A stretch of 64,000 nucleotides of DNA, from the NCBI GenBank assembly GCA_022823725.1, contig JAJEHL010000021.1, positions 1 to 64,000 of the forward strand, written 5' to 3'. This DNA is from Candidatus Latescibacterota bacterium (GTDB lineage: Bacteria > Latescibacterota > UBA2968). The translations under genes and the position numbers were made by a program. Below the pieces are notes generated by a model that had not been told where the DNA came from, ran no database searches, and was given only the letters and a program-made list of their open reading frames with translations. Each line of letters begins with the position of its first letter. The first letter of the stretch is position 1. This document shows positions 9,044 to 12,872 of this stretch, piece after piece.

Positions 9044-9119
9044 GTCATCTCCTAAAAAATGTCGCAAGAGACCCCGTAATTGAACACGGGAAAGAATGCG
9101 ACGTGTTTATAAATAGATA

Positions 9120-9148
9120 TTGACATCCATACCATTTATAAGTATAAT
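9120..9148 (+). promoter_or_regulatory. Perfect consensus sigma-70 promoter upstream of tnpB
   Basis: TTGACA (9120-9125), exactly 17 bases, then TATAAT (9143-9148): both hexamers match the bacterial consensus in full. It points toward the TnpB gene, whose ATG lies 98 bases beyond the -10 box. It may belong to the element, or be a host promoter that the element landed behind. Confidence 0.7.
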
Positions 9149-9205
9149 AAAGTATGAATAGAACAATAAAAAACAATATGTTATGTTTATTATCCTGCAT
9201 ACAAC

Positions 9206-9222
9206 AGTGTCGATTCGACACT
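9206..9222. repeat. Palindrome in the tnpB leader, possible left-end hairpin
   Basis: AGTGTCGA-T-TCGACACT, 8-bp arms around one base, lies 24 bases before the TnpB start. IS200/IS605-type elements carry a subterminal hairpin at each end, and the second TnpB element in this window has one in a comparable place. The left boundary itself is not defined. Confidence 0.4.
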
Positions 9223-9245
9223 ATATTCAGGACAGTTAGTTTTAA

Positions 9246-10484
9246 ATGCCATACTTGACAATAAAAGCCCATCTTCGCGGCACACCTGAACGCTTCACCA
9301 TTCTTCGCGACGCAATGTTGTCGGCGACCAAAGTCTATAATGGCTTGATCTTTCATCTGCGTCAAGAATACCAGCAGCATGGGAAAGTCTGTTATTCGGC
9401 TAGCCATCTCAACCGTATTGCCCGCCAGTTGCCACGCCACAAGGAATTGTATTCCGATGTGGTAGATACCACGCGGCAAGAGGTGAGATGGGCTTTTCAG
9501 GCATTCTTTCAAAAGCGCAAGCACGACAAGCAAGCACGACCTCCCGGATTCAGGAAGAAGACACGACTCTCTCCGCTGCGCTATTCCCACCCCAACAATG
9601 GCTCCATCAAGGTAATCCACAAGCGCGGAATGACATATCTCCGCATTTCCCTTGGCACCACCCGAAAGGACGGTGTGCGTCGCCTCGTCTTTCGTCTCCA
9701 CACCCGCCCAAATGTTGACCTTTCCCAGTTGAAGAACGTCCAGATCATCTACGATACGCACACACGGGATTTCCAAGCCCGTCTGGTGGTCGAAGTGGAT
9801 GTTCCTGATAAATCCGGAGAGGCCACAGTCGGTGTAGATATAGGCGAAGACTGGCTCATCGCCGCAGATTTCTGTGATGGCTCTCGGTATCTGGTCTGTG
9901 GACGCCTGCTCAAGGCCACACGCCGATACTGGCAGAAGGTCAGAGCAAAGGTCAAGCCACCCAGCCAAGATCATCCTATGATGTCGAGACGCTATCGCCA
10001 GATCGCCAGAAAAGAAGCCCGACAAATCACGCATGCCCTCCATATCGCCAGCAGACGGTTTGTGGATGTGTGTGCCGATAAGGGTGTGGGCACTATCATC
10101 CTGGGTGACTTGACTGGCATCCGACAGCGCATCGCCTATGGCACAAGGATGAATCAACGCCTGCACGCCTGGCCATATGCCAGACTCAGGGCGATGATTG
10201 AATACAAGGCTACGCTGCTTGGCATAAAGGTCAAAGTCGTCTGTGAGAAATATACCTCGCAGACTTGCCCGCAATGTGGTATAAGAAAGAAATCCAATCG
10301 CAAGCATCGTGGTTGGTATTCCTGCTGCTGCGGCTTTGAAGGCCAAGCAGACCTCGTGGGGGCTTTCAATATCCACCAAAAAGTATCTGGGATTCCCAGT
10401 AGTGGGCGTTCGGCGCGCCCTGTGGTCTTGGTGTTTGATCACCATACGGTCCACGAAGCTACAAGTTCTCGGGAGGCCGCCTGA
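9246..10484 (+). CDS. tnpB: TnpB-type RNA-guided nuclease with a shifted RuvC-II glutamate
   Basis: A 412-residue IS605/IS1341-group OrfB. RuvC-I Asp is D198 (GVDIG). At the usual RuvC-II Glu position the text is IILGDLTGIR, so the residue is G287. A Glu instead appears 47 residues later, E334 in CEKYTSQTC, where the second TnpB here has Asp. RuvC-III Asp is D369 (GQADL). The zinc finger uses CPQC (341-344) and the CCC group at 360-362. Comparative work on Fanzor and some TnpB proteins describes this relocated-Glu active site, so it is probably a competent nuclease. No tnpA transposase is adjacent, hence a non-autonomous element. The ribosome-binding site is weak. Confidence 0.9.
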   Translation: MPYLTIKAHLRGTPERFTILRDAMLSATKVYNGLIFHLRQEYQQHGKVCYSASHLNRIARQLPRHKELYSDVVDTTRQEVRWAFQAFFQKRKHDKQARPPGFRKKTRLSPLRYSHPNNGSIKVIHKRGMTYLRISLGTTRKDGVRRLVFRLHTRPNVDLSQLKNVQIIYDTHTRDFQARLVVEVDVPDKSGEATVGVDIGEDWLIAADFCDGSRYLVCGRLLKATRRYWQKVRAKVKPPSQDHPMMSRRYRQIARKEARQITHALHIASRRFVDVCADKGVGTIILGDLTGIRQRIAYGTRMNQRLHAWPYARLRAMIEYKATLLGIKVKVVCEKYTSQTCPQCGIRKKSNRKHRGWYSCCCGFEGQADLVGAFNIHQKVSGIPSSGRSARPVVLVFDHHTVHEATSSREAA

Positions 10485-10530
10485 TAAAGGTGCCCTCGGA
10501 ATCCCGTGACTTCAGTCAAGGGAGCACGTC
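10370..10530 (+). ncRNA. Probable omega-RNA/right end of the first TnpB element
   Basis: The 3' part of tnpB and the DNA after its stop end in a hairpin, TCCC-G-TGACT-TC-AGTCA-A-GGGA (10502-10523), followed by GCACGTC. A CCC(N)GACTtcAGTC(N)GGG stem just before the right boundary is a characteristic end of IS605-group elements and of the omega-RNA scaffold. The guide would be the host sequence right after the boundary, around 10528-10545. The 5' limit given here is approximate. Confidence 0.55.
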
Positions 10531-10848
10531 GATTGAATCGTGTAAAAAGGCATGTGCAAGGTGCAAAGTCTGAAGAGCAAAGTCAAATGTTCCCTCAACC
10601 CGTCTGAAGTCATCCCATTTTGAAGGTGAATGTGTTGGTAACAGAGTGAGGCTTCGTTCTAACCACCGATAAGATATCCACCGAACGGGTCAAGTCCACA
10701 CACTTTATCCGACACAGCACTCGTCACACTTACAAAATGGCTTGCTCAACACACCCATCTCGAATAAGTTTATTAATGCTATTATTTCTACGGTTGAAGA
10801 TCATGTTTCCATGGATGAGCCATTTAAATTTTCATGGGAGTTGTTGTT
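10524..10848. other. Intergenic stretch with a truncated reading frame before the ATPase gene
   Basis: No complete gene is seen. A frame open from 10673 to the TGA at 10850-10852 has a credible protein-like end (NKFINAIISTVEDHVSMDEP, then FKFSWELLL). Its stop overlaps the ATPase ATG as ATGA. It has no in-frame ATG except at MDEP (10811) and may be the tail of a gene lost when the TnpB element arrived. The part before 10673 contains nothing recognisable. Confidence 0.3.
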
Positions 10849-12003
10849 ATGATGATCAAACGTCTTATTGTAAAAAACTGGCGCAATTTTCGAGAACTCA
10901 ATGTTCCATTGCGCGAGCGTCAGTTTATCGTAGGTGCAAATGCGTCTGGTAAGTCCAACCTGCTCGATATTTTTCGCTTTCTTCGAGATATTGTAAAAGC
11001 AGAAGGAGGCGGATTACAGAAAGCGGTTAAAGACCGCGGAGGCGTATCTAAAATCCGTTGCCTGGCAGCGAGGCAAGATCCGGAAATCGAAATCGAAATT
11101 CACCTTGCAGACAATGCAGATTCCACTGAAACATGGAGATATGCGATAGGAATTAAGCAGCAACCTCGGGGTTATCGCCAGCCTTTTCTCACCCATGAAC
11201 GCGTGTGGAAAGATGGCAAACAGATTCTCGATAGGCCAGATGCAGACGATGCAGAGGATCAAGAACGACTCACACAGACCTTTCTTGAGCAAATCAATGT
11301 CAATGCAGACTTTCGAGAGATTGTCCTTTTCTTGCGAGACATTACCTATTTGCATCTGGTGCCTCAACTTTTGCGGTTTGCCGATTCGATTCAGGGAAGA
11401 ATTGTTGAGGATGATCCCTTTGGGCAAGGATTTTTGGAAAGAATTGCCACAGTCCCTGAGAGGACGCGCCGTTCCCGGTTACAAAAAATTGAACAAGCCC
11501 TCAAAATTGCCGTGCCCCAACTTGAGCAATTGGAATTTATTCGCGATGAAATCACGGGGAGATCCCATTTGCAAGCCCTTTATTCTCATTGGCGTCCAAA
11601 GGCGGGCTTGCAACGAGAAGATCAATTTTCCGATGGAACTCTCCGTCTTCTGGGCTTATTGTGGTCTCTTCTCGAGAGTGACTCCGTACTCTTATTGGAA
11701 GAGCCAGAGTTGTCATTAAATGCGGGTATTGTTTCCCAACTCGCACCGTTTGTTTCCAAGATGCAAAGAAGCCGACGCCCTCAAGTCTTTGTGAGCACAC
11801 ATAGCGATGCATTGCTTACAGAAAAAGGCATTGATGGCGGAGAAGTTCTGTTGCTTACACCAGCGAGGGAAGGGACAGCGGTAAAAATAGCCTCTGATAT
11901 TGATGAAGTACAGACGCTCCTCGAAGCCGGTTTTACAGTTGGTGAAGTCGTACTTCCAAGAACCAGACCTGAACATGCCGAACAATTGAGTTTTTTTGAA
12001 TGA
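10849..12003 (+). CDS. AAA ATPase (AAA_15/AAA_21, OLD-like), putative defence ATPase
   Basis: A 384-residue SMC/ABC-type ATPase. It starts IKRLIVKNWRNFRELNV, as such proteins do. Walker A GANASGKSN is at residues 29-37, a signature-like FSDGTLRLLG is near 265, Walker B SVLLLEEPELSLN is near 284, and the switch His sits in FVSTHSD near 325. There is no fused TOPRIM; that role seems to be supplied by the next gene, which overlaps it by ATGA. This layout parallels PARIS (AriA/AriB), Gabija and OLD-type systems. The ATG at 10849 follows GGGAG by 8 bases; one at 10834 is less likely. The DNA is visibly more AT-rich than the flanks. Function is inferred. Confidence 0.8.
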   Translation: MMIKRLIVKNWRNFRELNVPLRERQFIVGANASGKSNLLDIFRFLRDIVKAEGGGLQKAVKDRGGVSKIRCLAARQDPEIEIEIHLADNADSTETWRYAIGIKQQPRGYRQPFLTHERVWKDGKQILDRPDADDAEDQERLTQTFLEQINVNADFREIVLFLRDITYLHLVPQLLRFADSIQGRIVEDDPFGQGFLERIATVPERTRRSRLQKIEQALKIAVPQLEQLEFIRDEITGRSHLQALYSHWRPKAGLQREDQFSDGTLRLLGLLWSLLESDSVLLLEEPELSLNAGIVSQLAPFVSKMQRSRRPQVFVSTHSDALLTEKGIDGGEVLLLTPAREGTAVKIASDIDEVQTLLEAGFTVGEVVLPRTRPEHAEQLSFFE

Positions 12004-12605
12004 GATCAAACAAAGTAATCCTCGCCGTTGAGGATACACTCAGCGATGCCGTTTCGACTAAAATTCTCGAATACTTTGACCTCGAAATCGTAGGAAAAAT
12101 AGGATCTAAAGGCAATTCTTTCTTAAAAGAAAAGGCCCCTAACCTCAACCACGCAGCCAGGGGATTTTATAATGTCTTTTTATTAACAGATTTAGATTCT
12201 CCTAAAAATTGCCCACCAAAACTCATTCAATCCTGGATTAATGGACCTCTAAGTTCTGGTTTTCTCTTTCGCGTTGCAGTCATGGAAATCGAATCCTGGA
12301 TTATGGCGGATCGCAGAGGCATCGCAAAATTTTTATCGGTACCGCTCAATCGTATTCCATATAACACTGACGATATAGAAAAACCCAAAGAGTTTCTCGT
12401 TTCGCTTGCACGAAAGAGTAGAAAGAGAACCTTGAGACAAGAGTTGGTGCCCTCACAAGGCGCGACCACCGCAAAAGTAGGCCCTCTCTATAATACGCGT
12501 TTTACCGAATTTGTACGAGATCATTGGGATTTAGAACGCGCATCATCTGTGTCTGTAAGCTTAAAAAGAACATTGAACCGAATCAGCAATTTGTACTCTG
12601 CCTGA
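12000..12605 (+). CDS. DUF4276-like (TOPRIM-fold) partner of the AAA ATPase
   Basis: A 201-residue protein matching the DUF4276 pattern. It has an early acidic residue in ILAVEDTLSD (E11), the pair D64-L-D66 in LLTDLDS, and EIESWIMAD (E96, E98, W100, D104). PKEFL and a C-terminal SLKRTLNRI follow. The E...DxD...E layout is that of TOPRIM-like nucleases (DUF4276, DUF4435/AriB, RloB). Its ATG overlaps the ATPase stop (ATGA), so the two are translationally coupled and likely form one machine in which the ATPase senses and this protein cuts nucleic acid. No third gene is linked. Nuclease activity is inference. Confidence 0.72.
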   Translation: MRSNKVILAVEDTLSDAVSTKILEYFDLEIVGKIGSKGNSFLKEKAPNLNHAARGFYNVFLLTDLDSPKNCPPKLIQSWINGPLSSGFLFRVAVMEIESWIMADRRGIAKFLSVPLNRIPYNTDDIEKPKEFLVSLARKSRKRTLRQELVPSQGATTAKVGPLYNTRFTEFVRDHWDLERASSVSVSLKRTLNRISNLYSA

Positions 12606-12735
12606 ATGTATTTCTAAGGGACTATTTCCCAATACACTCTCCATCCAACCTCTATACACCTCGCCACGCTCAACACTCCCAAGATGCCAAAGCCCTATCC
12701 GCGGATCATAGACGCAGATCTCAAGCATGATATAG

Positions 12736-12760
12736 CCATATCCCACAGTGTAGGATATGG
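12736..12760. repeat. Inverted repeat after the ATPase/DUF4276 cassette
   Basis: CCATATCC and GGATATGG are perfect 8-bp arms around 9 bases, 131 bases after the DUF4276 stop. No U-run follows directly, so it is only a possible terminator or boundary mark. The rest of the 12606-12872 spacer holds no gene I can support. Confidence 0.35.
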
Positions 12761-12872
12761 ATGCAGGTTCTATTTTATACTATAAAAAAAATACCCTCTT
12801 GCATATTGAAACAAAATTGTGTAACTCTATCACTGACCACACACTGTTCAACCCGCAATTGCGGAGTGCATT

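Follow-up and report, generated by a model that had tools for sequence, protein, structure and literature searches.

By its sequence, the two-gene cassette in the window (the whole stretch of 64,000 nucleotides analysed here) is a member of HEC-01, an already catalogued candidate antiviral system. We are confident, short of certainty, that the cassette works in defence as a HEC-01 module whose effector is a TOPRIM protein, and on balance we favour a fuller explanation: a horizontally moving HEC-01 defence system, formed by a split relative of the OLD family and tethered to the replication clamp through the tail of its ATPase. Likely catalytic residues and a likely catalytic fold can now be assigned to the HEC-01 B protein, and the pair is linked to carriage by phages. 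What is new relative to HEC-01 as catalogued is a possible tether to the replication clamp.

Identity and coupling of the gene pair

The earlier note had described a cassette at 10849-12605 in which an ATPase gene (A) is followed by a small gene (B), and both reading frames are present there, coupled by an ATGA at 12000-12003 in which the start codon of B overlaps the stop codon of A. The product of A has 384 amino acids from the ATG at 10849 (a further in-frame ATG lies at 10834) and that of B has 201. In the regions retrieved from 64 genomes, B directly follows an A gene in 39 of 41 B reading frames, mostly overlapping it by a few bases. The cassette is AT-rich, as had been noted, with a GC content of 44.2% against 51.3% for the window, the second lowest value among 619 windows of equal size. 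The features discussed below are listed in Table 1.

Table 1. Positions of the features of the HEC-01 cassette and the neighbouring TnpB element in the window
Feature	Position	Strand	Basis
TnpB element (ORF 9246-10484)	9054-10532	+	Empty sites; NCBIfam guided_TnpB, E=4e-56
Cassette with HEC-01 pair, accessory, ~2.2 kb	10607-12786	+	blastn against the empty sites of G029, G030, G031 and G036
Gene A, OLD/SMC-head-type ABC ATPase, HEC-01A	10849-12003	+	PADLOC, AlphaFold2, Foldseek
Walker A, GANASGKSN, A residues 29-37	10933-10959	+	G-x-N-A-S-G-K-S-N invariant in alignment A3
ABC signature-like FSDGTLRL, A residues 260-267	11626-11649	+	Invariant in alignment A3
Walker B and start of D-loop, VLLLEEPE region	11686-11709	+	EEPE invariant in alignment A3
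QLSFF tail of A, putative beta-sliding-clamp-binding motif	11983-11997	+	Disordered tail, Q/L conservation, published consensus
Gene B, DUF4276-like TOPRIM-fold protein, HEC-01B	12000-12605	+	PADLOC, AlphaFold2, fold search
E11, first acidic residue of the TOPRIM-like site	12030-12032	+	Nearly invariant in 36 homologues; after strand 1 (5-10)
D64-L-D66, DxD after strand 3 (58-63)	12189-12197	+	D64 invariant, D66 at least 90%, in 36 homologues
E98-S-W100, ExW opening the helix after strand 4	12291-12299	+	E98 and W100 invariant in 36 homologues

The A protein matches the PADLOC HEC-01A model PDLC04180 over residues 1-381 of 384 (E=4.4e-156), and the B protein matches the HEC-01B model PDLC04194 over residues 1-199 of 201 (E=2.3e-55). 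Since both genes match PADLOC HEC-01 models, a new, undescribed system is ruled out, and the earlier view that this pairing is undescribed is not supported; its status as a candidate anti-phage system stands, HEC-01 being a candidate antiviral system. The HECs (Hma-embedded candidates) come from a study based on guilt by embedding (Payne et al., cited via PMC12988326 and PMC12111858), and several of them, including HEC-06 and HEC-04, are reported to act against phages (PMC12988326; PMC12111858). No statement on the activity or mechanism of HEC-01 was found in the literature searched. HEC-01 has also been recorded in Desulfovibrio piger by a genome survey (PMC12724379).

The B protein as a probable TOPRIM-like nuclease

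An AlphaFold2 model of B, built from seven sequences, reached a pLDDT of 85.7, and its top five PDB fold matches are OLD-family TOPRIM nuclease domains (probability 0.97-1.00, best E=5e-4), with low TM-scores (~0.4), so that the match rests on Foldseek probability. The weak viral fold matches include an RloB-like phage protein. The model shows the TOPRIM arrangement, a Rossmann-like fold in which successive strands are followed by E, by DxD and by another acidic residue, and the structure prediction that had been proposed as a check places a TOPRIM-like site (E11, D64/D66 and E98) beside these strands. The acidic pattern first read from the letters is upheld at E11, D64, D66 and E98 in an alignment of 36 homologues, most at ~20% identity, but less so at E96, which is A in one close homologue; broad B alignments are too divergent for pattern scans. 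With OLD TOPRIM domains at the top of the fold search and conserved acidic residues, the proposal that B is TOPRIM-like is sustained, and B is a putative metal-dependent nuclease.

The assignment of B to DUF4276 is right for the family and less so for this member: the window's B scores 13.9 bits against Pfam DUF4276 (PF14103), under the gathering cut-off of 30.2, while 30 of the 36 homologues match at E<=0.01 (best E=4e-32). Searches of NCBIfam and PHROGs gave no family for B, and a literature search on DUF4276 returned no result.

The ATPase and its C-terminal tail

Gene A encodes, as proposed, an AAA_15/21-type ATPase without a nuclease domain of its own: it matches Pfam AAA_21 (E=2e-36), has only generic ATPase matches in NCBIfam and PHROGs, and has no TOPRIM part. 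Its Walker B motif reads LLLEEPE, and an H-loop, STHS, is also present. The nearest folds to its AlphaFold2 model (pLDDT 82.3) are the SMC head, Rad50 and the defence ATPase PtuA (Foldseek, E~1e-12).

Residues 363-384 are disordered in this model (pLDDT <50), and it is here that the QLSFF motif lies. The disordered tails of close HEC-01A homologues retain a proline plus Q-L-x-[LF], with the endings QLSFF, QLSFL, QLSLL, QLSLSL, QLELF, QLDLF (twice) and QLALSL. Pairwise identity at the tail Q and L is 0.71 and 0.85, compared with 0.14-0.27 in adjacent columns. In a second HEC-01A clade (PDLC04178), the tails read QLNLF, QIGLF, QLSLF or degenerate forms. Copies from phages end in QLGLL, QLGLW, QLALV and ELGFI; the motif is missing in one viral relative (L082), and the tail Q is missing in two (L082 and L087).

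Such endings resemble the motif with which proteins bind the beta sliding clamp, for which QL[S/D]LF has been published as the consensus and, in a later revision, Q-aliphatic-x-[LM]-[FL] or a form of six residues, and which is often C-terminal (PMC4549789; PMC13254535). The tails QLDLF, QLELF, QLSLL, QLNLF and QLSLF of relatives fit this consensus, and the window's QLSFF is near to it, with F at position 4 where the revised consensus has L or M. The pattern Q[LIM]x[LFM][FLM] occurs in the last 30 residues of 11 of 39 HEC-01A-like proteins, which are related sequences and not independent, compared with 1 of 553 other ORFs from the retrieved regions. In the close group, the QLxL residues also gain 4-5 bits from the PADLOC profile, which does not depend on the sequence set used here. 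The window genome's own DnaE (QISMF) and MutS (QMPLF) carry clamp-type motifs, and the host clamp (DnaN, C2:285691-286857) should therefore read such tags. A ribosome-binding constraint was considered as the cause of the tail's conservation, but no Shine-Dalgarno-like sequence was seen in the tail DNA of the window copy.

Docking of the A tail on the beta sliding clamp through this putative motif is a lead, not proof, and we put it at slightly under even chances. Through such a clamp-docking-like tag, A may watch replication forks. Equally tentative is the wider proposal that the HEC-01 systems of the PDLC04180 and PDLC04178 groups are clamp-guided immune nucleases, in which a sensor ATPase would inspect forks by means of a C-terminal QLxLF tag. 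The literature searched held no description of the clamp-like tail of either group and no defence system described as sensing phages by riding the sliding clamp.

Two side observations concern the window genome (G000). A 477-aa ORF on contig C51 (L163:1033-2463, minus strand) joins an ECF sigma factor (Sigma70_r2, r4) to a C-terminal half weakly matching the DnaN beta-clamp model, and can be read as a sigma factor-clamp-like fusion. No Y-family polymerase (PF00817) was found in the whole genome, which is 98% complete.

Proposed mechanism

We propose that A is an SMC/Rad50-head-like ABC ATPase, probably dimerising around ATP, which would serve as sensor and gatekeeper, and that B is a small TOPRIM-fold metal-dependent nuclease, which A would hold or activate. 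The disordered QLxLF-type tail of A would probably dock on the beta sliding clamp and bring the complex to replication forks, a position from which phage replication or a disturbed fork could be noticed. Upon detection B would be released, nucleic acid, either DNA or RNA, would be cut and the infection would be stopped. If this is true, there is a group of OLD-like defence ATPases connected to the replisome, and a five-residue clamp tag would explain how so small a sensor is able to inspect DNA during replication.

The main alternative, which we consider unlikely but deserving of attention, dispenses with the clamp: A would sense a phage protein, as AriA of PARIS senses Ocr, and free B, which would cleave host tRNA in an abortive response, the tail binding B or being passive. 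PARIS has the same split ATPase/TOPRIM plan, and its AriB is a TOPRIM tRNase (PMC12409363). The A protein matches AriA models too (E=2e-32), far below its HEC-01A score, but no match of B to AriB or DUF4435 was found in PADLOC or Pfam. It also counts against this reading that the Q-L-x-L of the tail agrees with the clamp consensus and is shared by two clades with very different B proteins.

History and distribution of the locus

The cassette sits between genes, and four sister genomes (G029, G030, G031 and G036) lack it at the corresponding site; there, blastn places the equivalents of 10606 and ~12787 only 20-40 bp apart, which delimits the cassette. HEC-01 occupies the same site in G035 and G037, adjoining a reading frame which we take to be DUF418-like, and in G038 it lies across the Gfo/Idh gene from this site. 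Some copies are in decay: in G037 (L152, compared with 11867-12034 of the window) a deletion took the C-terminus of A and the N-terminus of B, and in G007 B is interrupted. Both genes are under constraint, as seen from dN/dS values among three genus copies of 0.07-0.12 (A) and about 0.17-0.27 (B); presence or absence at one genus site together with the decayed copies indicates an accessory, dispensable function. The locus is thus an accessory cassette that is constrained where intact.

The TnpB element beside the cassette is real but is an independent insertion: base 9053 of the window joins 10533 exactly in the four empty-site genomes, which delimits the element, its boundaries are exact and without duplication relative to these sites, and it is missing from all other genus copies of the site examined. 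For these reasons TnpB was rejected as a part of the system; TnpB-related copies occur elsewhere in three sister genomes. The truncated frame upstream was likewise rejected as a third component, being no gene but a stop-ridden leader that recurs in only two syntenic copies. The neighbours at the window locus are metabolic and transporter genes, with ABC transporter subunits directly after B. No known defence gene was recognised beside the window copy and 32 genes neighbouring other close copies included none. A defence island at this locus is therefore not supported.

Across the phylum, HEC-01B-like genes occur in 25 of 64 genomes, and the close A subfamily, which is bounded by a sharp gap (E=1e-139 vs 1e-41), in nine of the 64 and in four of 11 genomes of the genus. 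This sparse distribution bears on a second alternative, a housekeeping or repair module that works at replication forks and is not anti-phage, comparable to Cran1, an essential class 5 OLD protein from archaea. Cran1 shows that non-defence roles are possible for OLD ATPases (PMC12796447), and clamp motifs typify proteins of replication and repair, but the patchy occurrence of the close family, the empty sites, the decayed copies and the carriage by phages make this reading improbable. Slightly less probable still is a selfish toxin-antitoxin-like addiction pair on mobile elements, with A restraining a toxic B and defence incidental or absent, for which the tight two-gene coupling, the mobility and the inclusion of putative AbiEii-type toxins in the Pfam AAA_21 annotation can be cited, against the absence of the pair from four orthologous sites and the G037 deletion of parts of both genes.

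Relatives on phage contigs from IMG/VR share 48-62% identity in A. The pair lies near terminase, portal and HNH genes on one viral contig (L087), downstream of minor tail, lysozyme-like and Dam-type methylase genes on another (L081), and beside a CII-type regulator on a third (L082); L157 carries A only, at a contig end after a phage primase. B had no match among plasmids and annotated phages.

Several further arrangements of these genes were seen. On the viral contig L083 (8001-12132, plus strand), two tandem HEC-01A-like ATPases are followed by an Eco57I-like N6 methylase, and no HEC-01B was recognised beside them. In G053 (C74; L103:1483-2727, plus strand), a PDLC04178-group HEC-01A with a QLSLF end lies immediately downstream of a type III-like methyltransferase; it also overlaps another ORF, which belongs to no PADLOC family. 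The window genome itself has further HEC-01-type gene sets at C2:368088, C14:59648, C45:231076, C26:88666 and C41:2297, the last being a HEC-01A without a recognised B and with the tail QIGLF.

Comparison with known systems

The window's pair has the same gene families as HEC-01, near full length and in the same order and coupling, with no difference in composition. PARIS (AriA/AriB, class 4 OLD) likewise places an ABC ATPase and a TOPRIM nuclease on separate adjacent genes, but its partner is AriB/DUF4435, whereas the window's B is nearest to HEC-01B models. Membership of PARIS is ruled out by this partner, and the earlier description of the pair as similar to PARIS in logic with a different TOPRIM family is apt.

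The ATPase motifs of A align at the N-terminus with GajA (E=2e-6), and the fold of B matches OLD TOPRIM domains; OLD nucleases and GajA carry both domains in one protein, whereas the window's pair splits them and has no helicase partner. Gabija was rejected, as A has no fused TOPRIM and the ABC transporter subunits stand where a GajB helicase would follow. The fold of A is also near that of PtuA in Septu (PtuAB). There the partner of PtuA is an HNH nuclease, whereas here it is a TOPRIM-like protein. HEC-04/IbfA, a related ATPase-TOPRIM fusion that restricts phages (PMC12111858), follows the same ABC ATPase and TOPRIM logic but as a single fused protein. Lastly, clients of the beta clamp such as MutS and IS transposases carry a C-terminal or near-terminal QLxLF-type motif, as HEC-01A does, where it is putative (PMC4549789).
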